37,959 nt of DNA from a virus. Below are positions 12,547 to 37,353 of the stretch, piece after piece. Below the pieces are notes generated by a model. The model was not told the DNA's origin, made no database searches, and saw only the letters and a program-made list of their open reading frames with translations. A program made the translations under genes and the position numbers. Every line of letters starts with the position of its first letter. The stretch's first letter is position 1. The stretch spans positions 1-37,959 of the IMG/VR virus record IMGVR_UViG_3300045999_004574; one strand, 5' to 3'.

Positions 12547-13238
12547 CAGTCGTCCTTTTTAAGTCCAAACAGCTGGAGCAGATTAATGAACAGGTTAATA
12601 AAGTCTAAATACAATGCGAGTGCTCCAGACACTTCGTCGGCCGCAGTGGCATTTCCATTTGACACCATCTCGCGGATTCTCTGTGTGTCGTAGGCTGTGA
12701 GTGCCAAAAACACAATGATTGCAATTGCAGAGATCACCATTTGCATCACCGTAGAGCCGATAAAGATGTTGATGATGCTGGCAATGATGATTGCAATCAA
12801 GGCCACAAAAGCATAACGACCCACTGAGTCAAGACTTTGCTTGGTAAAGTATCCATATCCCGACATGGTACCAAACAAAACAGCCGCGCCCATGAAGGCT
12901 GTGACGATTGATCCCATTTTAAAAACTACAAAGATTGTGGCAAAACTCAAGCCCATAAGGGCCGCAAAACCATGTAGGCAAAGTTGCGCAACACTTTTGC
13001 TGGGATTGTTGCCCAGCACCATGGTGACCGCAAACACTGCCACCAAGGGTGCAAAGATAACCACCCATTTCATGAATCCGGTAAAGAAAAACTGTACCAG
13101 TTCTGGACTCATGCCCACAAACATAGACACCAGCATGCTGGTGATCACAGCCAGCATCATGTGTCCATACACACGACCCATGGCTTGATTTACGCCCGCG
13201 GCGTCTCTATAACTGTCAATAGTTGATGCGTACATCAT
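12546..13238 (-). CDS. Bax inhibitor-1 / YccA-family membrane protein
   Basis: The product is 230 residues from the MMYASTID start, chosen because AAGGAG lies 5 nt before it and because it gives an ATGA overlap with the upstream gene. About seven hydrophobic segments follow a short soluble N-terminus. The family's signature is near the end: ALTAYDTQRIREM, then GALALYLDFINLFINLL. Bacterial members include YccA, an FtsH-interacting protein, and YbhL, and act in membrane quality control or ion leakage. A phage copy might protect against or tune host FtsH or membrane stress during infection; that role is an inference. Confidence 0.9.
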   Translation of the reverse strand: MMYASTIDSYRDAAGVNQAMGRVYGHMMLAVITSMLVSMFVGMSPELVQFFFTGFMKWVVIFAPLVAVFAVTMVLGNNPSKSVAQLCLHGFAALMGLSFATIFVVFKMGSIVTAFMGAAVLFGTMSGYGYFTKQSLDSVGRYAFVALIAIIIASIINIFIGSTVMQMVISAIAIIVFLALTAYDTQRIREMVSNGNATAADEVSGALALYLDFINLFINLLQLFGLKKDD

Positions 13239-13693
13239 TCTTTCTCCTTTTTGGTTAATTCGCATACCAACAAAAATTGTTCGTATGCGTGTCTCACACT
13301 CTCGTGTTTCATTAATTTATCTGCTTCTGCGTGTAATGCCGTCAATCCTGCTTGAGCAATGTCGTAAACACAAGCAATTTGTAGAGTAGCCAATTCACTA
13401 CCAAACTCTTTTGCTAACTTTTCCCAGGCTTTCTTTTGTCCCGGAGTAATAGCAGTTCTTTGTGGTCGCAGTTCACTGGCTTCGCGTATGGCTTTGCACA
13501 TGGCATCTTCGGCCACACGGCCGGCCGCAATCAGCGCGGCATGGTTAGGTTCCACGTTAAACCTACGGGATGAACCCCCGGGGTAGCACATGACCAAGTG
13601 ATTACCTTTAGGGAAACTGTCCAAAAGATCACTGTCATACTCAGCCACAGGATGATACCGACGTCCAATTTTTTCATAGAATATCTTTTTCAT
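13235..13693 (-). CDS. Conserved phage protein of unknown function
   Basis: The 152-residue product starts MKKIFYEKIGRRYHPVAEYDSDLLDSF from an ATG that overlaps the upstream stop (ATGA). Longer in-frame starts would run into that gene and are rejected. The C-terminal half is helical with a C-terminal basic end (LTKKEKE). I associate the FYEKIGRRYxPVAEYDSDL, FPKGxHLV and AGRxAEDAM pattern with a widespread phage family of unknown function. ATGA overlaps on both sides show translational coupling to the BI-1 gene. Confidence 0.75.
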   Translation of the reverse strand: MKKIFYEKIGRRYHPVAEYDSDLLDSFPKGNHLVMCYPGGSSRRFNVEPNHAALIAAGRVAEDAMCKAIREASELRPQRTAITPGQKKAWEKLAKEFGSELATLQIACVYDIAQAGLTALHAEADKLMKHESVRHAYEQFLLVCELTKKEKE

Positions 13694-13917: not shown

Positions 13918-14329
13918 TGTGTGCTTTCAACGGAGTACCTCTGAGACCAGATACCATTTGAAATTTGTCCCAGGCGTCTTTTACAGTGGGCAAGTTTTCT
14001 AGGTCGCTGTCTGATACCACAGTTTCTAACCAGTAGTACGGCAGGCGTCGGGGGTGAGCACCGAACTTGCGGGGCTGGTGGAACTTGCCTTGATTCCATA
14101 ATTCAATACTGACATCACGGAAATCTTGTTCCGTGTAATCAGTATCGCCCCATTCTATATTTGTGTTTAGAAATGAGCCGCCACTATAGCCTGCCCAGAT
14201 ACCCGACCATTGTGCATCATCACGTGGATCAAAGTCTGTGCGAGCAACAATGACCAACACATCTTCAAGGTCCACTTGACCTTCCACAATGTCACGAACA
14301 CAACGACTATAACTAAGTCCAATTTTCAA
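13910..14329 (-). CDS. Conserved phage protein of unknown function
   Basis: The 139-residue product starts MKIGLSYSRCVRDIVEGQV, with EDVLVIVARTDFDPRDDAQWSG in the centre and a Lys-rich end. It has no signal, membrane segment or recognised domain. It overlaps the DNA ligase stop by 4 nt (ATGA), so it is probably expressed with ligase. Confidence 0.65.
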   Translation of the reverse strand: MKIGLSYSRCVRDIVEGQVDLEDVLVIVARTDFDPRDDAQWSGIWAGYSGGSFLNTNIEWGDTDYTEQDFRDVSIELWNQGKFHQPRKFGAHPRRLPYYWLETVVSDSDLENLPTVKDAWDKFQMVSGLRGTPLKAHNE

Positions 14330-15699
14330 ACTTTTTCTCCTGCTTCGAAGTCACGAAATCTCAAGAACCGTGGGAATCTGAGGCTGTATGTTCCGTCTTG
14401 GTTTTGTGTGACCGCGTCAGCTTGGATTTCAACCAAGTGACCAAGTAGGTCATGCCTTGCGGCCCAGTACCCATCGCGATCGCTATCACTAAGACCGCTG
14501 CCAACATTAACACAAATATGCCGTCCATTGTCTTCTCCTTCACAAATTATAGCACCAAGTCGATTTTCGTTGCGACCAGTACCTTGCTCAAAACCCACAA
14601 TCTTCAAATCAACAGTTATAGTGGGTTTCCATTTCATCCAAAAATCACTGCGTTTGCACTCATAAGGTGCATCCATGCTCTTGATCATGATACCTTCAAA
14701 ACCCTCGGCCACAGCAGCCTCGGCATAACGGTGCATGATGTCATGCCCTTCGGCTGTGTCCAGGTCCACTTCCAAGCCATTCATGATGCGCAGGCAAGGC
14801 GTGTCCAAAAGGGCTTCTCGGGCACTCTCAATCCACTTAATGCGTTTGTACTGTTGCAAATTGCAGTGGCCTTGTTTGAGAGCATCCAAGGGCAAGATAT
14901 CAAAAATGTGATACACCATGCCCGAAGTTTCAGCATTGCTCTTGCGATGTGCTTGACGCATGAGCTTTTGAAAGCTTTCGCCAACGATCTCACCATCCAG
15001 CACAAAGTGGCCACCTGTGCCACGACCGTATTGAAAGTGCTTGCGATTATCTAAAATAGCTTCTGCAATCTGCGGAAAGTTTTCAAACTCTTTACCATTG
15101 CGACTGTACAGGGTGCACGAGTTACCCGACACCACTGCCAACACACGCACACCATCCAGTTTGCATTCCAGGCGCTTGATGCCTCGGAGCTTTTTGGGCT
15201 GGTCTGTTGAGTCTTGTGCCAGTTGGCAACTGAACACAGGAATCTTCCATTCAGTTTTGCTCAACACCTTGTTCAAGGTCTTTTCCGAAATGCCGCAACG
15301 TAGGTCTTTGATCAGCACACGTCGAGCAAGATTGTTCCACTCTTCACTATCAAACTCGTCAGCACATTCTTGAATGGCATCACGTGCGCGGTGTCCTGAA
15401 ATACCTCGAGTGCGCAGGTCTTCCAACAAGGCCCAAAAGCGTGGCCACGGGTTGCCACGACCAGTTAGTCCTGTGGTTTCGGGAACCTGTCGCACATGAA
15501 ATGTGTAGAACGGATTGTAGGCTTGATAGCAGTTGAACAAAAAGCACTGTGCATCAGTACTGCCCAGTCGTGCGGCCATGAGTGCTTTTTCAATCACCTT
15601 TTCTTTGTGAATGCGACTGTCCGAACTTTCCAGGTCTCGAATCCAACCTGCGGCCATCACTGCCTCACAACGATCAAGATCAAAAGAGATTTCATTCAT
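14326..15699 (-). CDS. ATP-dependent DNA ligase
   Basis: The 457-residue ligase seals nicks during phage replication and repair. Nucleotidyltransferase motifs are clear: motif I Lys180-x-Asp-Gly in LECKLDGVRV, motif III VLDGEIVGE, motif IV EGFEGIMIKS and motif V FWMKWKP. The N-terminal part is a helical DNA-binding domain, and the C-terminal OB-fold ends with FLRFRDF. The length is close to T4 gp30. A TAAATA box lies 2 nt before the ATG, but it may be chance. Confidence 0.95.
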   Translation of the reverse strand: MNEISFDLDRCEAVMAAGWIRDLESSDSRIHKEKVIEKALMAARLGSTDAQCFLFNCYQAYNPFYTFHVRQVPETTGLTGRGNPWPRFWALLEDLRTRGISGHRARDAIQECADEFDSEEWNNLARRVLIKDLRCGISEKTLNKVLSKTEWKIPVFSCQLAQDSTDQPKKLRGIKRLECKLDGVRVLAVVSGNSCTLYSRNGKEFENFPQIAEAILDNRKHFQYGRGTGGHFVLDGEIVGESFQKLMRQAHRKSNAETSGMVYHIFDILPLDALKQGHCNLQQYKRIKWIESAREALLDTPCLRIMNGLEVDLDTAEGHDIMHRYAEAAVAEGFEGIMIKSMDAPYECKRSDFWMKWKPTITVDLKIVGFEQGTGRNENRLGAIICEGEDNGRHICVNVGSGLSDSDRDGYWAARHDLLGHLVEIQADAVTQNQDGTYSLRFPRFLRFRDFEAGEKV

Positions 15700-21686: not shown

Positions 21687-22762
21687 TCTAGTTGGTCGCT
21701 CATGATCCCAATCACATAATTTGTACTCTCGGTTTCCTGTAACGCGGCCTGTTTCTTGCTGGTATCCACATGCTTGGTAAACCAAGGGATGGGTGTTGAG
21801 CGCGGATAGCTTGCAGTATATTTGATGCCAATTTCTTTGAGAGCATTGAATGCTGTGAAATCAACAAAGTCTTTGAGAATTTGCGCATTGAGACCAATCA
21901 CAGGGCCCTTCTGGAACAAGTAATCAGCCCAGGCCTTTTCTTCTCGTATGACATCCAGGTACATTTGATAAACTTCAGCTTCACATTCTGCCTTGGCTGC
22001 TGCAAATCGCGGATCTTCTTTGACAACCTGATTAATCAACCAGCCAGTCCACTCTTTGTGGAGCATTTCATCTTGTAGTATCAAGCTGATGATATTGCCA
22101 TTGCCAATAAAGATCTTGTTCTCTACCATGGCCAAGCTGGTGGCAAAGCTGACCATGAAACGGAAAGCTTCTAGTGCATAACTTGCGTTCAGTGCCAACC
22201 AAATTGCTCGGATGTGCTCACGCTCAGGGAACTGTTCCAGCAGTTCTTTGCGACAATTGATCATGTGTAAACGATCATAGTAGTTGCCCACACTTGAAGC
22301 CATGTCTACAATTTCTTTAGTGTCATGAATGGTGTTGAACACATCCTTGGGCACGTTGTAGATGTTGCGAATGATGTGACTGTAACTTCTTGAGTGAATG
22401 TTGGTTTCAAAGAATGTCCAGTTGTAGACCAAGGCTTCTAGTTCTGGAAGACTTACAACTGGAGTAAAGATTTGGCTTGGGCCACGACCTTGTAAACTGT
22501 CTAGTGCTGTTTGGCGTAACAGATTGCTTGTGAAGATATGCTTGACTGTGTCACTGGCATCTTTGAAATCTTGTGCGTCTTTGGTGAGACTGATTTCTTC
22601 AGGCACCCAGAAAAAGCCACGTGCTTCTTGCTCGTACTTGACTAGCTTGTTGTATTTGACTTCTTCAAATCGTTGAACTGTAACTGGGCCTGCAGGGTCC
22701 AAGAACATCTTGCGATTGAGGTAGTCTGTTTTAGTTGTTAAATTATATTGTTCTTTGCTCAT
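21662..22762 (-). CDS. nrdB: Ribonucleotide reductase class I, beta subunit
   Basis: The 366-residue radical-generating subunit has metal ligands in order: Asp88 (ALDSLQGRG), Glu119 and His123 (FFETNIHSRSY), Glu198 (ASYALEAFRF) and Glu232-x2-His235 (DEMLHKEW). Tyr127 of HSRSY is the radical tyrosine position, so a class Ia type is likely. The spacing Glu119-x3-His123 is one residue longer than the E-x2-H of E. coli NrdB. The start overlaps the flavoprotein stop as ATGA. Confidence 0.95.
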   Translation of the reverse strand: MSKEQYNLTTKTDYLNRKMFLDPAGPVTVQRFEEVKYNKLVKYEQEARGFFWVPEEISLTKDAQDFKDASDTVKHIFTSNLLRQTALDSLQGRGPSQIFTPVVSLPELEALVYNWTFFETNIHSRSYSHIIRNIYNVPKDVFNTIHDTKEIVDMASSVGNYYDRLHMINCRKELLEQFPEREHIRAIWLALNASYALEAFRFMVSFATSLAMVENKIFIGNGNIISLILQDEMLHKEWTGWLINQVVKEDPRFAAAKAECEAEVYQMYLDVIREEKAWADYLFQKGPVIGLNAQILKDFVDFTAFNALKEIGIKYTASYPRSTPIPWFTKHVDTSKKQAALQETESTNYVIGIMSDQLDYDNLPDL

Positions 22763-23934
22763 ATTTTTTCCTTGACAAGGTCTACTACTATTTTAGCAGT
22801 GGCCGGGCTCAATGTCCAACCTAAATGGCCATGACCAGTGTGATAAAACACATTTGGTCGTTTCTTACTCTGTTGTACAATTGGCATCATGTTTGGTGTC
22901 ATAGGACGCAAACATGCCCACTGTGTGTAATCGTGTGTGTTGATATTGGGAAAGTTAGTGTGTACCCACTTCAACAACGGCTCAATACGGTCACGACGTA
23001 TATCATAGTTTTCACCAGTTAACTCAGCAGTACCGGCCACACGAAAACGATTTCCCAAACTTGAAGTAACAATCTTTGCTTGATCATCTAACAAACTTAC
23101 TGTAGGCAAGTGTGCAGGATCAACATTGTTGATAGTGATGCTATATCCTTTGACCGGGTATACAGGAAGACTATCACCAACTGTTTTTGCCAGTGCTGTG
23201 CTACCTACACCATTGGCAATGACCACAGCATCATAAAAAGAAACTTCTTCAATATGCCTAATTTGCCAATCGTAATAGAATGTAACATTGTATTTGGTCG
23301 CAAGTACGTTTGCAAGCTGGTAACAGAACTTGTGGACGTCACCAGTCCAGTCGCTAGCAGTAATGGTTGCGCCAACAATGCCTTTGATGTTTTTAAGTGC
23401 AGGATCAACCTCACCAACATAAGCAGGGTTAACTTCTTCACGTGGCAGGCCATTTTTGTTGTACAATTCTGTTACTGTTTGCGCATTTGCCCAGTAATCT
23501 TGATCCTTGTAAAAATGCAAGATGCCACAGTCACTACGGTCAAAATTAATTTTTTCTTGTTTGCAAATTTCGTTGTACAGTTCTTGACTTTGCAGTCCCA
23601 TTTTTACTGTGTTTGCTGTGTTCTTTTGATACACACCACGAGCTGTGTAGTACAAAAACTTGGCCATCCACTTCCACTGTGCCCAATCTAGTCTAGGACG
23701 AATCAGTAGTGGAGCATCCTTTTTGAACATCCACTTGAAGCCTTTTTTAACATTGCTCCAACTGGTCCATACTTCGCTATTGCTGACTGATATCTGACCA
23801 CCGTTGGCGAAACTGGTCCGCATGGCAGGATAACGTTCGGCTTCATATACCGATACCTGATAACCTGCTTTTATCAAATAATAGGCAGTGGTCAGGCCAG
23901 CGATGCCTGCGCCAATTACCGCAACTTTTTTCAT
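22759..23934 (-). CDS. FAD-dependent amino-acid dehydrogenase (DadA-like)
   Basis: The 391-residue protein has an N-terminal FAD-binding VIGAGIAGLTTAYYL motif (6-20), SFANGGQIS (41-49), a YPVKGYSI segment and C-terminal RPMTPNMMPIV with TGHGHLGWTLSP. These match D-amino-acid dehydrogenase (DadA). DadA deaminates D-amino acids and passes electrons to quinones. Here it lies between nrdA and nrdB, overlapping each by 4 nt (ATGA), so it is translated with them. Why a reductase operon should hold this enzyme is unclear: it could be metabolic, or supply electrons or ammonia. The family call is firm, the substrate not. Confidence 0.85.
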   Translation of the reverse strand: MKKVAVIGAGIAGLTTAYYLIKAGYQVSVYEAERYPAMRTSFANGGQISVSNSEVWTSWSNVKKGFKWMFKKDAPLLIRPRLDWAQWKWMAKFLYYTARGVYQKNTANTVKMGLQSQELYNEICKQEKINFDRSDCGILHFYKDQDYWANAQTVTELYNKNGLPREEVNPAYVGEVDPALKNIKGIVGATITASDWTGDVHKFCYQLANVLATKYNVTFYYDWQIRHIEEVSFYDAVVIANGVGSTALAKTVGDSLPVYPVKGYSITINNVDPAHLPTVSLLDDQAKIVTSSLGNRFRVAGTAELTGENYDIRRDRIEPLLKWVHTNFPNINTHDYTQWACLRPMTPNMMPIVQQSKKRPNVFYHTGHGHLGWTLSPATAKIVVDLVKEKI

Positions 23935-26252
23935 AGCTTACAGGCTTCGCAGTCTTCAACATCATCAAAGTCGATTACTTCTAATGGTGCAGAAACTTCT
24001 TCATCTCGTGCCTTGGCACCTTGTTTGTTGATCAAACTATAGTAGAATGTTTTTAATCCCCAGTAGTGTGCCTGCATCAAGTTCTTGGCAATCAATGTAG
24101 TTGGAACTTTACGATCCGCAAAGTGTGCTGGATTATAAAATGTGTTAGTACTAATACTTTGATCAACATAGGCTGCCAACACAGCCGCAGTTTTCAAATA
24201 TCCGTCACAGTTTTTCTGCGCCCACATCATTTGATATCGGTTCTTGAGTTTGTGATATTCAGGCACAACCTGTGTCAAGCTGCCTGCTTTGCTTTCTTTT
24301 ACCGAAATCAAGCTCATGGGCATTTCAATGCCGTTGGTTGAGTTGATCACTACTGAGCTGGATTCCACAGGAGCAATGGCCATCAAGGTGGCATTGCGAA
24401 CACCGTGCTGTTTCATCTGTTCTCGCAAGGGTTCCCAATCTAGTTCAGGCTGAAAATTCGTGAGTTCATTGACCCCGGCTGCACGTCGTTCCCACGGAAA
24501 CACACCACGACCATACCAGGTCCTCTCCGAATCTTTGCAAGCGCCTCGTTCTCGGGCAAGCTCAACTGTAGCTTCTGTAAGGTAGAAAGCCTGATGTTCC
24601 ATCCAAGACTTAACTTCAGCCAGAGCGTCCTTGTCACCATATTGCAATCCCCGTTTGGCATGCCAGTAAGCAAGGTTAGTAATACCGATACCAAGCGGCT
24701 GGATTTCGTCATTGGATAACTGCGATTGGATTGACAGGAAGTCTTGGTAATCAAGGATATTACACAAGGATCTCTGCAGAATTCTACAAGCTCGGCGCAT
24801 GTCTTCAGGATTCCGGAATGCACCCCAGTTAATACTTCCAAGCGTACAGAGCGCGATTCGCCCATCAGCATCATCCAGTCGTTTAAAAGGTCGTGTAGGT
24901 AAGAGAATTTCACAGCAAAGGTTACTCTGATAAATGGTATGGTACTCTGAGTCAAACGGACCTTGGTTCATGACATTGTCAATGAACACTAGATAGATAC
25001 GACCGGTATCTGTTCGTTCCTTAAGGATGCCAGATTTAAAGACTTCTTCGGCAGACATAGTTTTTGTCCGGAGGTCAGATCTAGCTTCATATTTGACATA
25101 AAGATCTTCAAATAGTTTAGTGTCCCGGTAAAACGCTTCGTAGAGCTCCGGTACTTCATTGGGGTCAAAGAAAGTGATATGCCCTTTGTTTTTAAATCTA
25201 CGCCAAAAGAAAGCAGATAGCACCACTCCGTAGTCCATGTGTCGGACTCGTGTTTCCTCGGTTCCTTGATTGTTCTTGAGAACAATAAGGTCATCGAACT
25301 GATGATGCCATATGGGATAAAACACAGTTGCACTTGCATTACGGATACCACCTTGTGAACATGAACGTAGGTCACCAAACCACTTTTTAAGAAACGGGAT
25401 CATGCCTGTGTGCATGATTTCACCGCCACGAATGGGTGATCCCAGTGGGCGTAAACGTCCTATTTCCAAGCCAATGCCAGCACGTTTGCTGGCATACTTG
25501 GCCATCATTTCACCCGAAGCAAATATAGAATCGAGATCGTCATCACTACGGATAAGAACGCAACTGCTAAACTGTTTAGTTGGAGTACCAAGCCCAGCAA
25601 GCACAGGAGTAGCGAGAGTGAAAAGACCATCACTGGCAGCATTGTAATATTCCTTTATATAACGCATACGAGCACTATTGGGTTCTTCCTTGTGAAAGAC
25701 AGTAGCGGCGGCAACCATGTAACGAACCTGCGGAGTCTCATAGATTTCCTTTGAGCTACGATTGCGAACAAGATATTTTTCAATCAGTTGTTCCACTGCG
25801 GCATACGAATACTGTTCGTCCTTGGCATGATCAATCATGTCATTCATGCGATCCCAGTCATCTTCGCTGTACCACTCTAGTAATTCAGGAGTATATAGGC
25901 CCACAGCCACGTTACGTTTCACAATCTCATACAAATGCGGAGGATCATAAGTGCCGTAGACATCCTTGCGCAGCATACTGAGACGCTGTTTGCCAGCCAC
26001 ATACTGATAGTTGGTGTGTCCTACATCGGGATTTGACTCTACATCAATTAGATCCACTATGGCACGCAAGGTTATTCCATCAATTTCTTTTGTGGTAATT
26101 CTATCGTAAAAATGCAATTGAGCTTTGATTTCAATCATGCTCTGACTGACGTCAGCTATCCCCGAACAAACTTTGGCGATCTGCGCTTGCCACTTTTCCA
26201 ACGCCAACGGCTCGCGAGTTCCGTTGCGTTTTTCCACTGTAATTTGTTTCAT
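23931..26252 (-). CDS. nrdA: Ribonucleotide reductase class I, alpha subunit
   Basis: The 773-residue catalytic subunit reduces ribonucleoside diphosphates. It starts with an ATP-cone (about 1-95; KRNGTREPL, KQRLSMLR), so dATP/ATP overall control is likely kept. The active site has Cys231 (SSCVLI) and Cys469 (IALCTLGSINWG) as the redox pair, and Asn444, Cys446 and Glu448 in QSNLCCEILLPT. The radical-relay tyrosines are in TFYYSLI near the C-terminus, and the tail ends CEACKL for thioredoxin/glutaredoxin reduction. It is the first gene of nrdA-flavoprotein-nrdB. Confidence 0.97.
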   Translation of the reverse strand: MKQITVEKRNGTREPLALEKWQAQIAKVCSGIADVSQSMIEIKAQLHFYDRITTKEIDGITLRAIVDLIDVESNPDVGHTNYQYVAGKQRLSMLRKDVYGTYDPPHLYEIVKRNVAVGLYTPELLEWYSEDDWDRMNDMIDHAKDEQYSYAAVEQLIEKYLVRNRSSKEIYETPQVRYMVAAATVFHKEEPNSARMRYIKEYYNAASDGLFTLATPVLAGLGTPTKQFSSCVLIRSDDDLDSIFASGEMMAKYASKRAGIGLEIGRLRPLGSPIRGGEIMHTGMIPFLKKWFGDLRSCSQGGIRNASATVFYPIWHHQFDDLIVLKNNQGTEETRVRHMDYGVVLSAFFWRRFKNKGHITFFDPNEVPELYEAFYRDTKLFEDLYVKYEARSDLRTKTMSAEEVFKSGILKERTDTGRIYLVFIDNVMNQGPFDSEYHTIYQSNLCCEILLPTRPFKRLDDADGRIALCTLGSINWGAFRNPEDMRRACRILQRSLCNILDYQDFLSIQSQLSNDEIQPLGIGITNLAYWHAKRGLQYGDKDALAEVKSWMEHQAFYLTEATVELARERGACKDSERTWYGRGVFPWERRAAGVNELTNFQPELDWEPLREQMKQHGVRNATLMAIAPVESSSVVINSTNGIEMPMSLISVKESKAGSLTQVVPEYHKLKNRYQMMWAQKNCDGYLKTAAVLAAYVDQSISTNTFYNPAHFADRKVPTTLIAKNLMQAHYWGLKTFYYSLINKQGAKARDEEVSAPLEVIDFDDVEDCEACKL

Positions 26253-26254
26253 TG

Positions 26255-26680
26255 TTACCTAATTTGTTGTTTTAGTTGCTGTTGCGCAATGCTGTGTTGG
26301 ATTTTTAATCCGGTTGGATTGATATTTAAGATGGTATCCGCGTCCCAATTCAATATATATTTCTTTTTGTGCACCAGGACTAAATTGTCGCTGGCAACCT
26401 CGACCAACGCAGCATCTTGCAAATCTTCACGATCCAATAAAGTTATAGTATACATGATTCCCAGTGCGCGAGCAAGTGGGCAGTAGATGTCGTCGCTCAA
26501 CAATTGCCAAGGATCGGGCCAGGAATCCCGATCATCCCAGTGCAAATGGTAGGCGCGCCAAGGGGTTTGAAACCACCAACTATTGATTTGGTGCAGGGCA
26601 GTTTCAAGATCAGCAGCGGCGGCTTGATTTCTGAGTTGATTCCAACTCGCTAGCCTTTCGGCAAAAGTGCGTGGCCACAT
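26255..26680 (-). CDS. Conserved phage protein of unknown function
   Basis: The product is 141 residues starting MWPRTFAERLASWNQLRNQA; an earlier ATG in the same frame is inside the fibre gene and is rejected. Trp-rich stretches (NSWWFQTPWRAYHLHWDDRDSW) and SDDIYCPLARALGIMYTI follow, a pattern I link with T4-like environmental phages. Function unknown. A TGATG junction couples it to the beta-helix gene and only 2 nt separate it from nrdA. Confidence 0.7.
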   Translation of the reverse strand: MWPRTFAERLASWNQLRNQAAAADLETALHQINSWWFQTPWRAYHLHWDDRDSWPDPWQLLSDDIYCPLARALGIMYTITLLDREDLQDAALVEVASDNLVLVHKKKYILNWDADTILNINPTGLKIQHSIAQQQLKQQIR

Positions 26681-28461
26681 CAGGCTAGTTTTGTTACGGA
26701 ATAATAAATGGTTCCAGCAGTTCCGGTGTTGGTGGTGGTGTAGGTCCAACTCACCACACTGGCCGCTTCGCTTTGACTAAACGTCACTCCGGGGCCAGTG
26801 CCATTGTCCAAACTGGTGTCTTGTCCGGCTAGACCTGTTCCTGAAGCATCAGTTCCGGCAATAATGATATACGATCCAGATTGCACATCAACTCCACGAA
26901 CAATGGTGTAATCAATTTTTACTGCTTTTATGTAGCCGGCATCAAATGTCAATAACGTTCGGGCAGCAGCTGCGTTGTTGGCCAAGGTATCAGTGATACC
27001 AGCCGTGCGTTGATATGTGCCCAGGGCCAATTGATTGGCATAGTTGTAGGGCGTTGCACCAGCACTGTTGTTTTGATAGAATGTGATGTTGCTGACATTC
27101 ATACCCAGAGCAACACCGTTGAGATTGTTGAGCCTAATTCTTGGTGTTGATCCAGATGCAAATTGCGTGGTTCGTTCAAACATGTCACCAACGCTGACAT
27201 TGTTGAGTCCGTTGATGTCAATTACCGGTGTCGATGGCAAGTTAGCACCGTTGAAATTATTTCCTACATCATAAAATGCATTGTATGCCGAACAGTTAAG
27301 ACCCACGTTTTCAATTACTATGCCTTCGGCATAGATGTTGTCGAATTGATTCTCAACCATGCGGAATCCAGTTGGGCCCACTGCCGGCGCCACACTGTCG
27401 CCTAGATACACACCTTGATACAGGGTATTAAACAAACTGTTAGCAAATGTCACTGATTCAATTTGTTCAGCTGTGTTTGTGCCCCATATCATGCCTGAAA
27501 ATTTACAATGATTCCATTCTATGTTGTTGCAGGTATATCCTGGAGTGGTATTCCAGCGCACACAGGCGGTGTTATTAACTGGGGTTGTCAGTGACGCTGT
27601 GGTTTCGGGACCTTGTATGTTTATGCTTTGGAAAGAACAATCTCTAGCTGCTTCAATGTAGCAACCATCATGAACTTGATCAGTTACAAATTTCATGTTG
27701 GTGATCTCAAAATCACCTGGTGGTGTGGCACCATTGGTACCAATGTTGGCGCCAGTTTGTTGCAAACTGTCAGCAGTTCTAAAAATGTAACTGGGCAGAG
27801 TGGTGGGTGTCCAATAAGCTGTGTTGGAAATAGAGATGCCAATAGGCACTGCGGCCGCACTTCTGTAGTAGGAGGCACCGTTCTTGACCAGTACACCACT
27901 GCTGTAAGATACTGCATTGGTCCAAGTCAGTGCAGTAAATGATATAATGGTGCTTTCAGGACCATCACCATATAGATTGCAGTATGGCGGAATATTCAAT
28001 GTGTCACTGATGACATATGTGCCACCAGGGAAATACAAACTGCGACGTATCTGTGTGTTGACATCACGGCAAAATAATTGATACAGAGCATTGTTGATGT
28101 TGGCAGTTACGTCTGTAACGCCATCGCCTGTGGCCCCAAAATCTGTAATAATTGCAATGCTGTCCAGTCTTGCCTGCAGACTTTGACTAATGGGTGTGCC
28201 GGCGCTGGTTCCAGTTTGTACAACATAACCAGCGGCTTGACCTTTGTAGGTATATGCTGTAGAGGCTGCAAGAACATCACTGAATTCAGTAAGTATCTCG
28301 GTATTACCCACCACTGGCGCACCATCTACCAGGGTGCCATTGCCAATAAAAAGTTGACGAGTGTCGGTACACCAACCCAGCTCTGCACCTGCCAAAGGTT
28401 GAGGTAAATCTTCTGCTAGACCCTTGCGTTGGGTGATCCTCGAGATCTGGACTATCGCCAT
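26680..28461 (-). CDS. Tail fibre/tailspike with beta-helix domain
   Basis: The 593-residue protein starts MAIVQISRITQRKGLAEDLP and has GWCTDTRQLFIGNG (29-42). The pectate-lyase-like DFGATGDGVTDVTANINNAL (107-126) leads into a right-handed beta-helix rich in Asn and Gly. A YYRSAAAVPIG...NTAYWTPTTL module (about 198-222) is shared with the 679-residue protein. Such spikes bind or cut surface glycans; a catalytic role cannot be settled. Overlaps by 1 nt with genes on both sides. Confidence 0.8.
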   Translation of the reverse strand: MAIVQISRITQRKGLAEDLPQPLAGAELGWCTDTRQLFIGNGTLVDGAPVVGNTEILTEFSDVLAASTAYTYKGQAAGYVVQTGTSAGTPISQSLQARLDSIAIITDFGATGDGVTDVTANINNALYQLFCRDVNTQIRRSLYFPGGTYVISDTLNIPPYCNLYGDGPESTIISFTALTWTNAVSYSSGVLVKNGASYYRSAAAVPIGISISNTAYWTPTTLPSYIFRTADSLQQTGANIGTNGATPPGDFEITNMKFVTDQVHDGCYIEAARDCSFQSINIQGPETTASLTTPVNNTACVRWNTTPGYTCNNIEWNHCKFSGMIWGTNTAEQIESVTFANSLFNTLYQGVYLGDSVAPAVGPTGFRMVENQFDNIYAEGIVIENVGLNCSAYNAFYDVGNNFNGANLPSTPVIDINGLNNVSVGDMFERTTQFASGSTPRIRLNNLNGVALGMNVSNITFYQNNSAGATPYNYANQLALGTYQRTAGITDTLANNAAAARTLLTFDAGYIKAVKIDYTIVRGVDVQSGSYIIIAGTDASGTGLAGQDTSLDNGTGPGVTFSQSEAASVVSWTYTTTNTGTAGTIYYSVTKLA

Positions 28462-29114
28462 TATGCTACTCCCTTATCAGACCAAACGCGGTTACCATTA
28501 ATTAGTTTCCAGGTTTTTCCTTTGCATGCAATATTTGCATGTCCCAGTTTTCTTTTGTTTATATAAGGCTCTAATTTTGGCATATCTGATCTCCGAATTC
28601 TCCAACCTTTGGTTTGTTTTAAAAACAAACGATTAGTTGGAGTGTTTAATGCAGTTGGCATTGATTTGTCAACATTGTGTTCTTCGCACCATTTTGAAAT
28701 GTTAGCAACATACACTTCTTCAGGGTTGTCAATTCTGCTAATATACCAGCCTTTTGCACGACTTTGTGCTTGTTTATCGTGCCAACGTTTTTTATCAATG
28801 GACGAAAGCTGACTAAACCATCTCTTGCATCCATTAAATTTATCCCCTGGGCCGCCATCACCACCATTTGCAACATTATAACTTTGTGGATTATTGACAG
28901 CGTTAGTATATGCTATCCATGCAATTTCTGCTTGATTGAGATGGTCGATTGAATCGCAGGTCTCTAAAACAAACTTCTTAAAATTATGTTTACCATACTT
29001 TTTTATTGCTTTTTTTAAAAAAGTTCCAGAACCAAAGTAATTGGTAGAGCTATTTTTATCTCTACCAATGTACCATTTTTTATTAACACTATTAACTGTA
29101 AGGTAAATCTGCAT
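28461..29114 (-). CDS. GIY-YIG homing endonuclease (Seg-like)
   Basis: The 217-residue product opens MQIYLTVNSVNKKWYIGRDK, with FGSGTFLKKAIKKYGKHNF and LNQAEIAWIAYTN forming the GIY-YIG nuclease core and SYNVANGGDG its tail. A DNA-binding NUMOD1-like stretch follows (YVANISKWCEEHNVDKSM). The region is more A+T rich than its neighbours, as often for homing genes. It lies between the fibre and the RecB-type nuclease. A TAAATA occurs 4 nt before the ATG, overlapping the upstream stop. Confidence 0.85.
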   Translation of the reverse strand: MQIYLTVNSVNKKWYIGRDKNSSTNYFGSGTFLKKAIKKYGKHNFKKFVLETCDSIDHLNQAEIAWIAYTNAVNNPQSYNVANGGDGGPGDKFNGCKRWFSQLSSIDKKRWHDKQAQSRAKGWYISRIDNPEEVYVANISKWCEEHNVDKSMPTALNTPTNRLFLKQTKGWRIRRSDMPKLEPYINKRKLGHANIACKGKTWKLINGNRVWSDKGVA

Positions 29115-29832: not shown

Positions 29833-30257
29833 AATTTGTTTACTGTGATGCCTGATTTTTGCAAGAATTCAATGCCCGAGTTGTCTCTGTATGCTTGACC
29901 AAAATACACTCGACGAATTCCTGATTGATAGATCAGTTTTGCACAATCCAAACAGGGAGCATGAGTAATAAAGATATCAGCATCCAGGCCACTGTTAGTA
30001 GATTTCGCCAGTTTTGCAATAGAATTTGATTCAGCATGAAGAACCTCGAGTTTGGTTTTTAGTCCCGCAGTTCCGTCTTGTTGGTAAACTTCGTCTTCGC
30101 AGTTGTTGTCCCAACCTGCGGGCATGCCGTTGTAGCCATAGCTGATCACAGTACCGTCTTTGACAATTACTGCGCCCACCTGCAGGCGTCGAGCATTACT
30201 GAGTTCAGCAGCTCGCCGAGCCCAGTCCATGTATAGGTCAATGTATTTTTGTTTCAA
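29829..30257 (-). CDS. dCMP deaminase
   Basis: The 142-residue protein has the zinc-deaminase signature: HAE (74-76) and PCLDC (101-105), with the VGAVIVKDG and GYNGMPAG features of T4 Cd/dCMP deaminase. It makes dUMP for dTTP synthesis and works with RNR. The C-terminal GIEFLQKSGI fits the family. It overlaps iscA by 4 nt, so it is in an operon with the Fe-S genes. Confidence 0.95.
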   Translation of the reverse strand: MKQKYIDLYMDWARRAAELSNARRLQVGAVIVKDGTVISYGYNGMPAGWDNNCEDEVYQQDGTAGLKTKLEVLHAESNSIAKLAKSTNSGLDADIFITHAPCLDCAKLIYQSGIRRVYFGQAYRDNSGIEFLQKSGITVNKL

Positions 30258-30577
30258 ACTCTAAAACTTTCTCCGCAGCCACAACGGTCACGTTCATTAG
30301 GATTGCGGAATTCAAAACCTTCGTTGAGACCCTGACGCACATAATCCACAATCATACCTTGCAAATAAACATCGTGCCGTTGATCCACTATAACAATAAA
30401 TTCGGGTTGCGCATAGTTGATGCTGCCATCTTGGGGTGTGTATTTGTTCACGTATTCTAACACATAAGCCAGGCCAGAGCAACCAGTGGTTTTTACGCCA
30501 AGCCGAATTCCTGCATAGCCTTTGGCTGTGACTAGTTTTTGGATTTTGTTTCGTGCTGTGTCAGTGAACGAGATCAT
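30254..30577 (-). CDS. iscA: IscA/HesB A-type Fe-S carrier
   Basis: The 107-residue protein has Cys33 in TTGCSGLAY and Cys99, Cys101 in DRCGCGESF, the three cluster ligands of A-type carriers. Such proteins pass Fe-S clusters from IscU to targets. Its 17-nt overlap with iscU shows they are made together. The host makes its own, so this is an auxiliary metabolic gene. Confidence 0.93.
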   Translation of the reverse strand: MISFTDTARNKIQKLVTAKGYAGIRLGVKTTGCSGLAYVLEYVNKYTPQDGSINYAQPEFIVIVDQRHDVYLQGMIVDYVRQGLNEGFEFRNPNERDRCGCGESFRV

Positions 30578-30944
30578 GCTTTTTGCGATAGTCTTCTACC
30601 GCGGCTTTGATCGCGTCTTCGGCCAAGATTGAACAATGGATTTTGACTGGCGGGAGGGCGAGCTCTTCAGCAATGTCTGAATTCTTAATTGATTGTGCGG
30701 CGTCGAGCGACATTCCTTTGACCATTTCAGTAATCAGCGAGCTTGATGCAATTGCTGAGCCACATCCGTAAGTCTTAAATCTTGCATCTGTGATAATGCC
30801 GTCTTTGACCTTGATCTGAAGTTTCATCACGTCACCGCAAGCAGGTGCTCCTACCATGCCTGTACCGATTGAATCGTCAATTTCAAATTTACCCACGTTG
30901 CGTGGATTTTCATAGTGATCAATTACTTTGTCTGAGTAGGCCAT
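30561..30944 (-). CDS. iscU: IscU Fe-S scaffold protein
   Basis: The 127-residue scaffold has all ligands: Cys36 and Asp38 (GAPACGDVM), Cys61 (YGCGSAIASS) and Cys104 (HCSILAEDAI), plus the LPPVK motif (97-101) read by HscA. It would accept sulfur from host IscS, as no cysteine desulfurase is in the window. Full conservation suggests it is functional and uses the host chaperone pair. Confidence 0.95.
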   Translation of the reverse strand: MAYSDKVIDHYENPRNVGKFEIDDSIGTGMVGAPACGDVMKLQIKVKDGIITDARFKTYGCGSAIASSSLITEMVKGMSLDAAQSIKNSDIAEELALPPVKIHCSILAEDAIKAAVEDYRKKHDLVH

Positions 30945-31449: not shown

Positions 31450-31806
31450 TTAGACCCCGCGGTCTTTTTTCATGGCCGATTTGGCTGCGGATGCCACAAT
31501 GTCCTGTGCCCGATCTACTGGCATGGCAACATTGGGTTTGCCGGCATTTTTAAATACCAAAACTCCAGTGTTTGGATCCATGGGTTCTAATAAGTTACTG
31601 AGTGGTTCTTGACTCACAACACCGGCTAAGTTGTCAGGGGTTATGTTGATGTCTAAATCATTGGCCAGTTTGATAAATGCATCCTGACTGATTTCTTTCT
31701 TGGCATTGGTGTCGCTGGCACGACCATTGAGGAACTGTACCAACCCTGACAGTTGTTCTGGGTCAGGAGTTGGTGCTGAACCAGCATCAACTTCAAATAT
31801 TTTCAT
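31450..31806 (-). CDS. Probable virion/internal protein
   Basis: The 118-residue protein starts MKIFEVDAGSAPTPDPEQL. The N-terminus has an I-x-E pattern shared with neighbouring genes, the kind of site a T4-type prohead protease would cut. The remainder is helical with MDPNTGVLVF. The function is unknown. The start shares one base with the upstream stop (TAATG). Confidence 0.55.
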   Translation of the reverse strand: MKIFEVDAGSAPTPDPEQLSGLVQFLNGRASDTNAKKEISQDAFIKLANDLDINITPDNLAGVVSQEPLSNLLEPMDPNTGVLVFKNAGKPNVAMPVDRAQDIVASAAKSAMKKDRGV

Positions 31807-32762
31807 TATCTCTTGGCTCGACCTAGTGCGGCAGCAGGAGCTTCTGCGCCAGCTTCGGCTGCGGCTGCGTCCAAGGCAGCATCAGCTCCCATTTCGGCGC
31901 CAGCGGCATCGGCAGCAGCCATGTCGGCACCAGCGGCATTCATGGCGTCAGCACCAGCGGCAATATCAGCACCCATTGCACCCGCGGCGGCTGCGCCACT
32001 TGGTGCTTGACCAGTTACAACACCTAGAGCAGCATCAAGTTGCTGTTTGGCACCTTGAATATTTTGCAACAGGCCTGCAAGAGCGGCAGTGGCGTCTTGA
32101 TTGAATTGAGCGGCTTGATCAATGCCAACTTGATCCTTGATTGAATCAACCAAGGCTGGCAATTCTTTGAATTGCAGTTCACTCACATCTTCCAACATGC
32201 CTTGCATCTTGTCTACCATGTCCTGAGCAGCCAATACAACTTGAGCTTGTTGCACTTCGCTTTCATTCAGGCGCTTCATGAAACGACGCAAACGACTTTC
32301 AGCTTGCATCATTGCGGCGCCGGCCACTAGTTTTTGTTCTTCTGGATTCAATGTTTGACCAGCTGAACTCTTTTTAAGTGCAGCGGCCAATTTGGGATCT
32401 TTTGCTACTGCACCAGCCACAGCAGGCTTTCCGCCAGCCACAGCGGCTTGTGGTGTTGCAGGAGCCGCGGCACCAACACTGCCAGTTCCGCTGGTACCAG
32501 CCACAGGAGCCATGGCCTCTTTGAGCCTGCCCACAAGAGCCTGTTCCATCATGATCAGTTGCAGATATTTTGGATTCTGTTCACTGTTGTGACGTGCAAC
32601 AGTTGATCGATACTCCCGGAGCACACCCTGTACTTTTTCCAGCATGAAGGCCGATTGATTGGCAGTCAGTTGGTTGAAGGGAATACGTGAACCAAAGTAA
32701 CTTTCAAATACTTTGGTAATTTGCTTACTTGGCTTAGTGGCCGATAGTTCTTGCAGTTTCAT
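31806..32762 (-). CDS. Ala-rich virion-associated protein
   Basis: The 318-residue protein starts MKLQELSATKPSKQ, with IPFNQLTANQSAFMLEKVQ and a helical middle, and ends in a long Ala/Gly/Asp low-complexity tail (from about 255). The L-x-E at residues 3-5 matches a T4-type prohead-protease site. It may be a scaffold, an internal head protein, or a structural protein. An AGAGG site supports the start, and a TAAATA box lies 23 nt upstream. It overlaps the preceding gene by 29 nt. Confidence 0.6.
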   Translation of the reverse strand: MKLQELSATKPSKQITKVFESYFGSRIPFNQLTANQSAFMLEKVQGVLREYRSTVARHNSEQNPKYLQLIMMEQALVGRLKEAMAPVAGTSGTGSVGAAAPATPQAAVAGGKPAVAGAVAKDPKLAAALKKSSAGQTLNPEEQKLVAGAAMMQAESRLRRFMKRLNESEVQQAQVVLAAQDMVDKMQGMLEDVSELQFKELPALVDSIKDQVGIDQAAQFNQDATAALAGLLQNIQGAKQQLDAALGVVTGQAPSGAAAAGAMGADIAAGADAMNAAGADMAAADAAGAEMGADAALDAAAAEAGAEAPAAALGRAKR

Positions 32763-34482: not shown

Positions 34483-36384
34483 TCACGCCTGTTGCGGATT
34501 GTTTCTCTGACGATTTTGAGCCGCAAAAGCCTGGGGATCAAACCTATTTACCGCTTTGGCGTAACCAGCAGGAGTGGCCATGACCCAGCCTTCTTGCCCC
34601 GGGTGCTCAGCATCTGCTTGGCGTAGCAGGTGCATTTTCAAGTCGTGTAACAATACAAATGCTGTGAATGCCGCGGCCAGGGCCGGGGTATTAGATGTAG
34701 GACTGTTTAGATATTCCACAATGTTTCGGAACTTTTGTGGTGTTACCTTGGTCTGTAGCCAATCCCCAAATTCGGGCAACAGTGTGGCGCCGTTGAGTGG
34801 TGCGCCTACCTTGGTGTTGATAAAGTCCACACACAGTTTGGCTAGATCTGTGATCTTGTGTGCTCGCAATTCAGCAGGATTGAACAGCACATCAATGTCT
34901 CGACCATGAGTTTTGATCAGTTGTTTGAGTTGCTTTTCGGCGTTGGTTTCGGTTTGCAGTTGCCGGGGACTTGCTGGTTTTTCCAACATCAGGCCAGGAA
35001 CTTCGTTAAAGCCCACACCACTCAGTGGCTGACGTTCGTCGCCTTGATCAGCGTACATTGAGTGTATGGCAATGCCAATCTTGCTGTTGCCAATGCGCTG
35101 GCCCAGGGCAGACTTTGCGGGAATCTTGTATTCCACAGTGTTGGGCCGGAAAACATAGTTGCCGGAAATCAAGGGCGGTGTGTCCATGTACAACAAATCA
35201 CCCTTGACATACCCGCGAAAGTTTGGTGGTAGTGCGGCTTCCAGCACTGGGAACAACGTGGAGTAAATCTGAATCAATTCAGTTCTATCGCCTGAACGTT
35301 TGCTTTGTATGTCTGCCATCATTTGGGGACTTGTGGCAAGACCATCATAGCCCTTGGCTTCAAATCCTGAACCATCTGTGAGCACAAACTCTCCGGTGCT
35401 GGGCTTGCGTCCAAATATCACAGCAGGTTTGCCGTCCCACTTGGCTGTGGTTGTTTTGGGTTGTTCTGTGGCATGTTGCACAATAGCAAGAGCATCTCGG
35501 ATGCCTTGTGTGCCACGTCGGAACACAAGATCTTCCAGATGTTCAATACCCTTGGCTCTGCCGCCTACCCCAGCTTGTTCGGCTTCCACAAGAGCAACAT
35601 AACCTTTGTTTACAATTCTATCACGCAGACGTGCCAAGAAACTGACATCACTTTCGGCTACGCCAGCTTCGGGTTCCTTGATGCCTTCACGTGCAATATA
35701 ATCACGGAAGTCTGCTAGTTTAGCATCACGATCGGGATCCATGGCCAAGGCTTTGTAAATGCTTTCAACTGACATCAGTTGATTGCGCTTGAGTCCCGGA
35801 CTCAACAGTATGCCGGCTGCTTCGTCTGGATCCATGGTGACCAAGCGATCAGACTGACGACTTGTGATGCCCTTGCCCGATGCTTTGAGGCCCAGGGACT
35901 TGGCAATGCTGCTCATCAACACATTGCGGAACACACCTTTGTAGGCTGAACCTGGTGCACTGCCCAACCAGAATGTGCCCCATTCCAAATTGGGCATGAA
36001 CATGAAGTCTGTTTGTGCATAACCACTCTTGGGATTGCCTTGTATGGGAGTTTTAAAGTGCACAGCTTCGCCTGTGAGTCTGCACCAGTCTCGGGGATCT
36101 TGTTTGTTTTTTGTGGCCCAGGCATCCAGTCGGCCCTTGAGTTCGGCCTTGGTGATTTCGTTGGAATCCACTGCAAGATCCAAGTCACCCGAATCGGGCT
36201 TTTTGCCAGTTGATCCCAACCACTTGACGGGAATACCGTTTTCGTCCTTGTCTTGGGAAAGATCCAGGCCAGTCAGCTGCTCCAGCCAGGCCACAGTGCC
36301 GGGGATCTCGACCTGACGGATACGACGAGTTGCTGGCGAACCGTCAGCGTTTTTAAAAACATTGCCACCTTCTAGAAGTTTCAT
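34483..36384 (-). CDS. Two-domain protein: pol-beta-like NTase plus KxDG ligase-like
   Basis: The 633-residue protein begins MKLLEGGNVFKNADG. A nucleotidyltransferase signature is seen: Gly57-Ser58, Asp67-x-Asp69 in SGDLDLAVD, and Asp126 in QTDFMFM as third carboxylate. A second part has Lys315-x-Asp-Gly (TTAKWDGKPAV), then GYVKGDLLYMD and YVFRPNTVEYKIP, which resemble motifs I, III and IV of covalent nucleotidyltransferases. Motif III lacks the usual DGE, so activity is uncertain. Similar phage proteins of unknown function exist. Roles could be RNA repair or end modification. L-x-E at residues 3-5 suggests possible head packaging. Confidence 0.65.
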   Translation of the reverse strand: MKLLEGGNVFKNADGSPATRRIRQVEIPGTVAWLEQLTGLDLSQDKDENGIPVKWLGSTGKKPDSGDLDLAVDSNEITKAELKGRLDAWATKNKQDPRDWCRLTGEAVHFKTPIQGNPKSGYAQTDFMFMPNLEWGTFWLGSAPGSAYKGVFRNVLMSSIAKSLGLKASGKGITSRQSDRLVTMDPDEAAGILLSPGLKRNQLMSVESIYKALAMDPDRDAKLADFRDYIAREGIKEPEAGVAESDVSFLARLRDRIVNKGYVALVEAEQAGVGGRAKGIEHLEDLVFRRGTQGIRDALAIVQHATEQPKTTTAKWDGKPAVIFGRKPSTGEFVLTDGSGFEAKGYDGLATSPQMMADIQSKRSGDRTELIQIYSTLFPVLEAALPPNFRGYVKGDLLYMDTPPLISGNYVFRPNTVEYKIPAKSALGQRIGNSKIGIAIHSMYADQGDERQPLSGVGFNEVPGLMLEKPASPRQLQTETNAEKQLKQLIKTHGRDIDVLFNPAELRAHKITDLAKLCVDFINTKVGAPLNGATLLPEFGDWLQTKVTPQKFRNIVEYLNSPTSNTPALAAAFTAFVLLHDLKMHLLRQADAEHPGQEGWVMATPAGYAKAVNRFDPQAFAAQNRQRNNPQQA

Positions 36385-36389
36385 AATAA

Positions 36390-37118
36390 TTATTTAAATT
36401 CTACACCTAACTTTGTTGCTATTGCCGCATGGGTAGGATTTGTCTTATCAAAATCCACATACGTACCATTACCCACATCAATCTCAAATGTAGTAGGCAC
36501 CGACCCACGCTTGACTCTTATGTCGGGATCATCGCGACCGCCAGCGTCGTACGCTATCATGTTTTGAGCCGGAGCGACCCCATCCTGCATGAGACTTTGC
36601 CATGCTTGTGCTGTGTTAATTCCGGCTGCAGGATCCATGGTGGCTTTGAATATTTGATCTGCTGCCTGACTGATATTATCAATAGTGGCCCGAGCTCGAC
36701 CTTGTGCCACTGGATCTGTGCCCGCAGACTTTATCAAGTCGTTGTAGTTGTATGCACTGCGAGGCTGAATGGCTTGATTGATCATGACATCTAATTCAGC
36801 TTTTAGGGCGTTTTTGCTGTCCATACTAAGTTCGGATGCACTGGTCACTGGAGCACCAGTAGCAGGGTTCTTGCTTCGTGCCATGGCAGCCTGTACAGCG
36901 GCTGCCCACTGTTTCATCATCACAGGCGTCAATGTGTTTGATAATTGTCTCCCCAATTGCACTGCTTGAGCACGATCCATGGTGGCACCACCAGTTGGAC
37001 TTATCACCCCACCAAAGGCTTTTCTTTGCAAAGCGCCTGATATCTGTCGGCCAATTGCAGCACCAACGCCGAGCATGGCTTCATCAACCCGTTTGTGTGT
37101 TATTTCATGTATCTGCAT
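36390..37118 (-). CDS. Probable virion/internal protein
   Basis: The product is 242 residues from MQIHEITHKRVDEAMLGV, chosen because AGGAG is 6-7 nt upstream; longer in-frame starts overlap the next gene strongly. A small-residue-rich helical N-terminus (GVGAAIGRQISGAL) and helical centre lead to a C-terminal VPTTFEIDVGNGTYVDFDK. I-x-E at residues 3-5 matches the neighbours. The function is unknown. Confidence 0.6.
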   Translation of the reverse strand: MQIHEITHKRVDEAMLGVGAAIGRQISGALQRKAFGGVISPTGGATMDRAQAVQLGRQLSNTLTPVMMKQWAAAVQAAMARSKNPATGAPVTSASELSMDSKNALKAELDVMINQAIQPRSAYNYNDLIKSAGTDPVAQGRARATIDNISQAADQIFKATMDPAAGINTAQAWQSLMQDGVAPAQNMIAYDAGGRDDPDIRVKRGSVPTTFEIDVGNGTYVDFDKTNPTHAAIATKLGVEFK

Positions 37119-37353
37119 TTGTTCTCCTAACTGATCGTGAAAATTTACCGGCATCTTTGGTGCGTATTGCATTGAGCAATTTTCTTGTGAGGTTCTCTGC
37201 TTGCTCGGGACCAAATTCGGACTCTATCTGTTCAATTAGTCTTATGGCACTTGCAATCACACTGTCAGCTCGGGTTTCAATGATCAAGCGTCGGTCACGC
37301 TCTACATACATTGAATCCAGTTCTTCAAGTAAACTTCGGGTCTTTTTCTGCAT
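37105..37353 (-). CDS. Small helical phage protein
   Basis: The 82-residue, charged and helical protein starts MQKKTRSLLEELDSMYVERD and ends with a basic RRTNADT. It has no recognised domain. A TAAATA box is 19 nt upstream, and it overlaps the next gene by 14 nt, so the structural-gene transcript probably begins here. Confidence 0.6.
   Translation of the reverse strand: MQKKTRSLLEELDSMYVERDRRLIIETRADSVIASAIRLIEQIESEFGPEQAENLTRKLLNAIRTKDAGKFSRSVRRTNADT

Follow-up and report, generated by a model that had tools for sequence, protein, structure and literature searches.

A predicted nucleotidyltransferase-ligase fusion protein of a freshwater giant phage, a candidate nucleic-acid end-repair enzyme

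The window analysed here is a viral DNA stretch of 37,959 nucleotides (positions 1 to 37,959 of IMG/VR record IMGVR_UViG_3300045999_004574), and the gene under study is one of its open reading frames (ORFs), which encodes a fusion protein of a freshwater giant phage. In a single chain, the protein joins an N-terminal half (N-half) predicted to adopt a family-X-like nucleotidyltransferase (NTase) fold with three aspartates, and a C-terminal half (C-half) predicted to adopt an ATP-ligase-type fold with the KxDG lysine, a motif III Asp, a motif IV Glu and a motif V Lys. On balance, with confidence somewhat above even, we interpret this protein from its models and conserved motifs as a bipartite phage nucleic-acid end-repair enzyme of the extend-and-seal type, for which RNA is favoured over DNA. 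An earlier model-made reading of the window (hereafter, the sequence-only reading) had suggested RNA or DNA end repair or modification; end repair is the best-supported role, given the recurrent coupling of the two halves in fused and split form. That reading had also delimited the ORF and its 633 residues exactly; the gene lies on the minus strand, where the frame is open throughout, and the plus-strand reading is full of stops.

The AlphaFold2 model of the whole protein, built on an alignment of 41 sequences, has a predicted local distance difference test score (pLDDT) of 88.6. Its best Foldseek matches in the PDB are family-X polymerases, namely T. thermophilus PolX (3b0y, E 2e-3) and polymerases lambda, mu and beta, and VIA-align superposes residues 11-207 on residues 141-335 of polymerase beta (5ugn_A, Z 11.4, root-mean-square deviation (rmsd) 3.1, 162 residues). 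Among the top matches of the whole model in a viral structure library are phage proteins annotated as "cytidyltransferase-like", including a 591-aa protein of S-PM2. The GS...DxD pattern and third aspartate noticed in the sequence-only reading are present as L56-G57-S58-T-G, S65-G66-D67-L-D69 and Q124-T125-D126; in an alignment of 24 relatives G57, S65, G66, D67, D69 and D126 are invariant, and position 58 is Ser or Thr.

Since the whole-model fold search told little about the C-half (9df9, E 0.014, probability 0.54), this half was modelled and searched alone. The model, predicted from 33 sequences, has a pLDDT of 92.0 and a predicted template modelling score of 0.86. Foldseek ranks a Thermococcus DNA ligase first (E 3.5e-3, probability 0.95), and VIA-align a Naegleria RNA ligase (6vt1_A, Z 8.9, rmsd 3.7, 181 aligned residues), followed by a fungal tRNA ligase (7.2), the trypanosome editing ligase (7.2), human LIG1 (7.2), T4 Rnl1 (7.1) and T4 Rnl2 (7.1). 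A Z of 8.9 alone is modest; we assign the ligase fold because, in addition to the motifs, all 50 of the 50 VIA-align matches listed belong to one superfamily, that of the RNA/DNA ligases (RNA ligases, the tRNA ligase Trl1, the editing ligase, T4 Rnl1/Rnl2 and DNA ligases). The NAD+-dependent LigA is missing among these 50 matches, which bears neither for nor against NAD+ use. Structure prediction, the check proposed in the sequence-only reading, gives a nucleotidyl-transfer fold in each half, so the outcome that would have refuted that reading did not arise.

The KWDGKPAV segment reported earlier is found at A314-K315-W316-D317-G318-K319-P320-A321-V322. For the C-half we use motif labels that we take from general knowledge of the ligase superfamily; under these labels, E598-G599 is motif IV and K610 belongs to motif V. 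In an alignment of 33 relatives K315, D317, G318, D396, E598, G599, K610, V612 and R614 are invariant, as are F412, P414 and Y419. Because the active-site residues are invariant in 24 relatives for the N-half and 33 for the C-half, the resemblance of the motifs goes beyond chance. The replacement of the motif III DGE by GD was correctly observed (V393-K394-G395-D396-L397), and the acid is Asp in 33 of 33 rows, a conservative change. The suggestion drawn from it, of an altered or inactive second half, finds no support: D396 is family-wide, motifs I, IV and V are all preserved, and the ratio of nonsynonymous to synonymous substitution rates (dN/dS) between the window protein and six relatives is 0.025-0.084 for residues 280-633, compared with 0.067-0.217 for residues 1-210. 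Both halves are thus under purifying selection, and the C-half is the more conserved of the two; since, in addition, D396 is a trait of the whole family, the C-half is not decaying. We consider it very unlikely that the protein is catalytically dead, a structural or nucleic-acid-binding component of the head or core that retains enzyme folds; the motif III Asp in place of Glu and the head-targeting-like tags on neighbouring proteins (see below) would fit such a role, whereas the invariance of all catalytic positions and the strong purifying selection speak against it.

Profile searches, also proposed in the sequence-only reading, identify the C-half as a member of DUF6267 (PF19782; residues 280-615, E 2.9e-29, 103 bits against a cut-off of 27) and, in PHROGs, of phrog_455, of unknown function; no known NTase or ligase family profile is matched by either half. 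In Pfam, the N-half has no match, and the window protein matches neither a DNA ligase family nor the Rnl1/Rnl2 profile PF09414; it has no C-terminal OB domain, as the chain stops about 20 residues past motif V. With the RlaP profile PF10127, neither the window protein nor any of 24 relatives was matched at E values up to 1, and PADLOC and NCBIfam had no match to the window protein; the NCBIfam PolX model reaches the relative at locus L118 with E 0.052, far below the cut-off. DUF6267 is described only as a family of unknown function, and we found no account of DUF6267, PF19782 or phrog_455 in the literature searched. To that description the present analysis adds a predicted ligase fold, motifs IV and V and a coupled NTase.

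A tblastn search of annotated phages with the window protein gave 349 records at E <=1e-3, mainly Synechococcus and Prochlorococcus phages; most of the matches listed span the C-half only, and a few the N-half only. DUF6267 ranges over cyanophages, pelagiphages and jumbo phages, and a profile scan of bacterial and archaeal genomes found it on 3 contigs in 2 metagenome-assembled genomes. The N-half stands alone in Pseudomonas phage 30-2 (237 aa). When IMG/VR was searched with the whole protein, 214 stretches with close relatives were obtained, and the fused architecture is present in 80/80 of the loci kept (best 80 of 214). The fusion, at 64-74% identity, is found on contigs of 364 kb (G027), 343 kb (G026) and 210 kb, for which reason we place the window in a jumbo-phage group. 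The fusion gene of the 343-kb relative (L261, G026:C1:271191-273119) contains one in-frame TAG, which may reflect a sequencing error, recoding or decay.

The coupling was also examined with the NTase half alone as the query, that is, with no ligase sequence in it, keeping the best 80 of at least 437 relatives. The ligase-like half is fused to the NTase half in 27 of these 80 loci, and in 36 a ligase-like gene follows on the same strand, after a stop-to-stop ORF gap of at most 152 bases in 32 loci and at 1.0-1.3 kb in 4. In the remaining 17 it is missing from the locus stretch; 14 of these contigs were searched whole, and 2 have the ligase elsewhere. On a tree of the N-half (39 dereplicated sequences of 62 long enough, the loci not being independent), the fused label requires 4 changes and the split label 4, and none of 500 shuffles is as low; counting only well-supported branches, at least 1 change is forced for fused and at least 3 for split. 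The coupling of the NTase and ligase-like halves thus persists in both forms. At some loci the NTase gene has other neighbours. A 341-aa protein encoded directly behind it (L134:6675-7697) has a second, different pol-beta-like pattern, GSSAY...GDIDLQL, and the N-terminus MRAFEFILE-GG. In L099, L103 and L101 a possible further partner, from a family starting MRINEVD/MRLDELD, either precedes the NTase half in one chain or follows it.

Several observations weigh against an end-repair enzyme of this kind. For 15 of the 80 NTase loci no ligase partner was found, and the DUF6267 proteins of cyanophages, the Kyanoviridae among them, have no PolX-like half in the same chain, unlike the window protein. 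The best Z of the C-half barely exceeds the level reached by unrelated models. Sequence profiles reach neither superfamily: PDB searches with hidden Markov models of both halves gave spurious matches only, phmmer with the whole window protein against the PDB gave 0 matches, and when hhalign was used to compare the DUF6267 profile with that of the DNA ligase family of the phage itself, the probability was 0.3%, the ligase profile being narrow (effective number of sequences, 1.5). Among 24 relatives, the N-half reaches Pfam DNA_pol_B_thumb in only two, with E 0.031 at best. The departure from Glu in motif III may count against ligase-type catalysis, and the predicted resemblance of the N-half to DNA polymerases would favour DNA over RNA.

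According to the mechanism that we propose, the N-half would extend a 3' end by one or a few nucleotides, or fill a short gap, using two metal ions, and the C-half would take AMP from ATP onto K315, pass it to a 5' phosphate and then seal the strand. The favoured substrate would be RNA, for example a cleaved tRNA. RNA is preferred because the nearest folds of the C-half are RNA ligases, the OB domain is lacking, and the phage encodes a separate canonical DNA ligase (window 14326-15699, matching DNA_ligase_A_M and OB_2). It is also preferred because RlaP was found in 0 of 6 contigs searched with its profile and, in three large relatives, the sole PF09414 match coincides with the canonical DNA ligase, so the module may fill a gap in RNA repair.

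The same data can be read as DNA-specific gap filling and nick sealing, in which the PolX-like half would fill 1-nt gaps and the ligase half would seal, so that the phage genome is repaired by base excision or at double-strand breaks. This is unlikely on the whole, though several points favour it: the nearest folds of the N-half are DNA polymerases beta, lambda and mu and bacterial PolX, the gene is placed between helicase/primase genes and nrdA, and a precedent exists in PgVPolX of Phaeocystis globosa virus, a PolX fused to an NAD+-dependent ligase for which, in the accessible text of its report, gap filling and sealing are proven (PMC5537341). The canonical DNA ligase in the same phage, the nearest RNA ligase folds of the C-half and the lack of both an OB domain and an 8-kDa domain argue against it. 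PgVPolX itself differs from the window protein: it has 1093 aa, 30% identity to human polymerase beta and a recognisable ligase, according to the same text (PMC5537341), whereas the window protein has 633 aa, superfamilies undetectable by sequence and no OB domain, and belongs to a bacteriophage family.

PgVPolX and the pairs of RlaP with RNA ligases are the closest precedents. In the latter, as the available part of the source describes them, a pol-beta-fold NTase occurs alongside a KxDG-fold RNA ligase (Rnl) in jumbo phages (PMC7824862); the likeness is limited, as the window protein and its relatives do not match the RlaP profile and DUF6267 is not Rnl1/Rnl2 by profile. African swine fever virus (ASFV) likewise has a minimal PolX and a diverged ligase, a viral gap-fill-and-seal pair in the portions of the reports available (PMC5330486, PMC6344480), in which the two enzymes are separate proteins; the C-half matches AsfvLIG only weakly in Foldseek (E 0.17). 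Systems that couple a polymerase-type NTase to a ligase are known, and we did not find this phage family with its fused and split organisation described in the literature searched.

In many phages, a third component accompanies the two halves of the putative end-repair enzyme. A HIGH-type nucleotidylyltransferase is joined to the N-terminus in L133 (PF01467, E 0.0048, below the cut-off) and to the C-terminus in L157 (E 1.5e-4, above it); the named NCBIfam matches of this component are mostly NMN adenylyltransferases (NMNATs), all below the cut-off. In Kyanoviridae, DUF6267 is followed on the same strand by the enzyme, the two matches lying 390-773 bases apart, in 12 of the 12 records among the matches listed in both searches, and in S-SZBM1 the NMNAT/cytidylyltransferase-like S-SZBM1_140 adjoins the DUF6267 gene. 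This protein of Kyanoviridae belongs to the HIGH superfamily, with a fold unlike that of DUF6267, and none is fused to the window protein. PF01467 matches occur in 7 of 14 long contigs carrying the module and in all three large relatives of the window, in none of them adjacent to the fusion gene. The HIGH-type enzyme belongs to the module in many phages, with the supply of NAD or nucleotides as a candidate role. Its presence, fused or adjacent, could also indicate that two or three nucleotidyltransferases transfer nucleoside monophosphates to an RNA cap or to a protein or cofactor and join no strands, as the covalent-nucleotidyltransferase fold is also used by capping enzymes, which are among the weak Foldseek rows for the C-half. 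We regard this as improbable, since the closest folds are ligases and a polymerase-type NTase partner pairs naturally with strand sealing.

The sequence-only reading placed the gene inside a virion gene cluster, which is only partly borne out. The neighbours include one with a match to a virion structural protein profile (Table 1), and a tail-fibre-like gene lies at 26680-28461, whereas replication genes adjoin in relatives: in L069 the fusion gene comes after genes that include those for a polymerase fragment, a primase and a DnaB-type helicase. In the window the fusion gene precedes nrdA (23931-26252), and the segment continues to nrdA in S-SZBM1 and S-SCSM1 as well; the DUF6267 slot appears similar in S-SZBM1 and in the window's group, between the replicative helicase and ribonucleotide reductase. 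A literal virion cluster is disfavoured because the head genes of the 364-kb relative, which encodes a T4-type (gp21-type) prohead protease about 90 kb from the fusion gene, are distant. T4 head genes were tried as a general mark of these phages and rejected: gp21 (PF03420) and gp23 (PF07068) were matched on one of 14 long contigs, and gp21 on one of the three large relatives, contigs that may be partial.

Table 1. Features of the fusion gene and of its tagged neighbours in the window.
Feature	Position	Strand	Basis
Whole gene: PolX-like NTase and DUF6267 ligase-like domain, one chain	34483..36384	-	633 aa
N-half, residues 11-207: predicted family-X (pol beta) palm and C-terminal subdomain fold	35764..36354	-	AlphaFold2 model, VIA-align, Foldseek
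NTase motif G57-S58 ... D67-x-D69, two putative metal-binding Asp	36178..36216	-	Sequence; G57, D67, D69 invariant, 24 rows
Putative third catalytic Asp, D126	36007..36009	-	Invariant, 24 rows
Linker, residues ~238-279, low model confidence	35548..35673	-	pLDDT <50 at 241-244, 261-277
C-half, residues 276-633: DUF6267, predicted covalent-nucleotidyltransferase (RNA/DNA ligase) fold	34486..35559	-	PF19782 match, AlphaFold2, VIA-align
Motif I K315-W-D-G, predicted adenylylated Lys	35431..35442	-	Invariant, 33 rows
Motif III G395-D396, Asp instead of Glu	35197..35202	-	D396 invariant, 33 rows
Possible motif IIIa F412-x-P-x-x-x-x-Y419	35128..35151	-	F412, P414, Y419 invariant, 33 rows; IIIa label inferred
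Helical insertion, residues ~480-593, separating motif I-III core from motifs IV-V	34606..34947	-	C-half model secondary structure
Motif IV E598-G599	34588..34593	-	Invariant, 33 rows
Motif V K610-x-V-x-R614	34543..34557	-	Invariant, 33 rows
Upstream neighbour, tag MQIHEI at internal Met; like-tagged gene in same place in G027	36390..37214	-	No Pfam match
Neighbour, tag MKLQEL, virion structural protein profile match	31806..32762	-	phrog_14154 E 1.7e-12
Neighbour, tag MKIFEV	31450..31806	-	N-terminal tag

Other genes of the window include two adjacent iron-sulphur assembly genes (30561-30944, NifU_N, IscU-like, E 2.8e-52; 30254-30577, Fe-S_biosyn, IscA-like, E 2e-16), an FAD-dependent oxidoreductase gene between those of both ribonucleotide reductase subunits (22759-23934, DAO, E 5.9e-62), a ClpX-like ATPase with a zinc finger (7966-9180), a Bax1-I family membrane protein (12546-13265, E 8.6e-51) and, just upstream of the tail-fibre gene, a GIY-YIG homing endonuclease-like gene (28461-29114, phrog_314, E 1.1e-27).

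The protein may be packaged in the head, as the sequence-only reading suggested. Support for this comes from the third enzyme of the module, which recurs in cyanophage virions: as given in the accessible parts of the reports, the S-SZBM1 virion table contains the cytidylyltransferase S-SZBM1_140 and its neighbour _139 (PMC9146016), ORF154 of S-CREM2, a cytidylyltransferase, was detected with 3 peptides (PMC10665884), and the NMNAT ORF91 was detected in S-SCSM1, whose authors remark on the recurrence (PMC9602691). Against it, the DUF6267 protein S-SZBM1_141 is missing from that virion table as accessible (PMC9146016), and the window protein has only a very short N-terminus of the kind discussed next, MKLLE-GG. 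No DUF6267 gene was identified in the stretch of S-SCSM1 examined; S-SCSM1_90, a "virion protein" encoded beside the NMNAT gene, was considered as such a protein and ruled out, having neither KWDG nor a Pfam match above the cut-off.

The virion-detected S-SZBM1_140 (MRFRQFIIEA) and S-SCSM1_91 (MKSFLQFLKEA) start with a short hydrophobic stretch ending in xE-A. Internal proteins of T4 are targeted to the capsid by an N-terminal propeptide of 10-20 residues that is cleaved by the prohead protease, in the available portions of two sources (PMC5694885, PMC3012670), and head packaging is possible because the tagged neighbours of the fusion gene resemble such capsid-targeted proteins. Tag-like N-termini are found in 5 of 8 clusters of split DUF6267 proteins, 2 of 5 of NTase genes, 0 of 5 of fused genes and 18 of 293 of other ORFs; the patterns were written post hoc from examples seen, so these and the following enrichments are suggestive only. 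Of 200 unrelated ORF groups on loci L088-L167, 30 begin with the related tag M[KRQN]-hydrophobic-x-[EQ]-hydrophobic, which is found at 0 of 899 internal Met, a contrast that includes ordinary N-terminal composition bias. Around the fusion gene of the 364-kb relative, 3 of the 26 genes in a 20-kb region begin with this tag, compared with 1 of 165 genes in seven further stretches of the same length. The window has it on 3 of its 48 called genes, twice at the first ATG, and none of the three lies more than about 5 kb from the fusion gene. Judging from these sequences, the shared tag near the module is perhaps a capsid-targeting signal that marks a head-packaged set of proteins. Head packaging is thus a live possibility for the module and a weak one for the window protein.

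A more far-reaching proposal, which we consider quite unlikely, is that the PolX-like half, the ligase-like half and the NMNAT-like partner form a repair kit that in some phages would be loaded into the capsid by the T4-like tag, injected with the genome and used to mend broken tRNA or gapped DNA at entry; in its boldest form, the ligase would use NAD+ and the NMNAT-like partner would turn the released nicotinamide mononucleotide (NMN) back into NAD+. Head packaging, if true, would explain the repeated presence of NMNAT-like enzymes in cyanophage virion proteomes.

DUF6267 is widespread and has no assigned function, and reading it as a ligase coupled to a family-X-like polymerase gives a concrete biochemical prediction for the family. 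This reading could add a family to phage RNA and DNA repair beside RlaP/Rnl and PgVPolX, and the conserved pairing across many phages suggests an overlooked enzyme that mends RNA or DNA strands.

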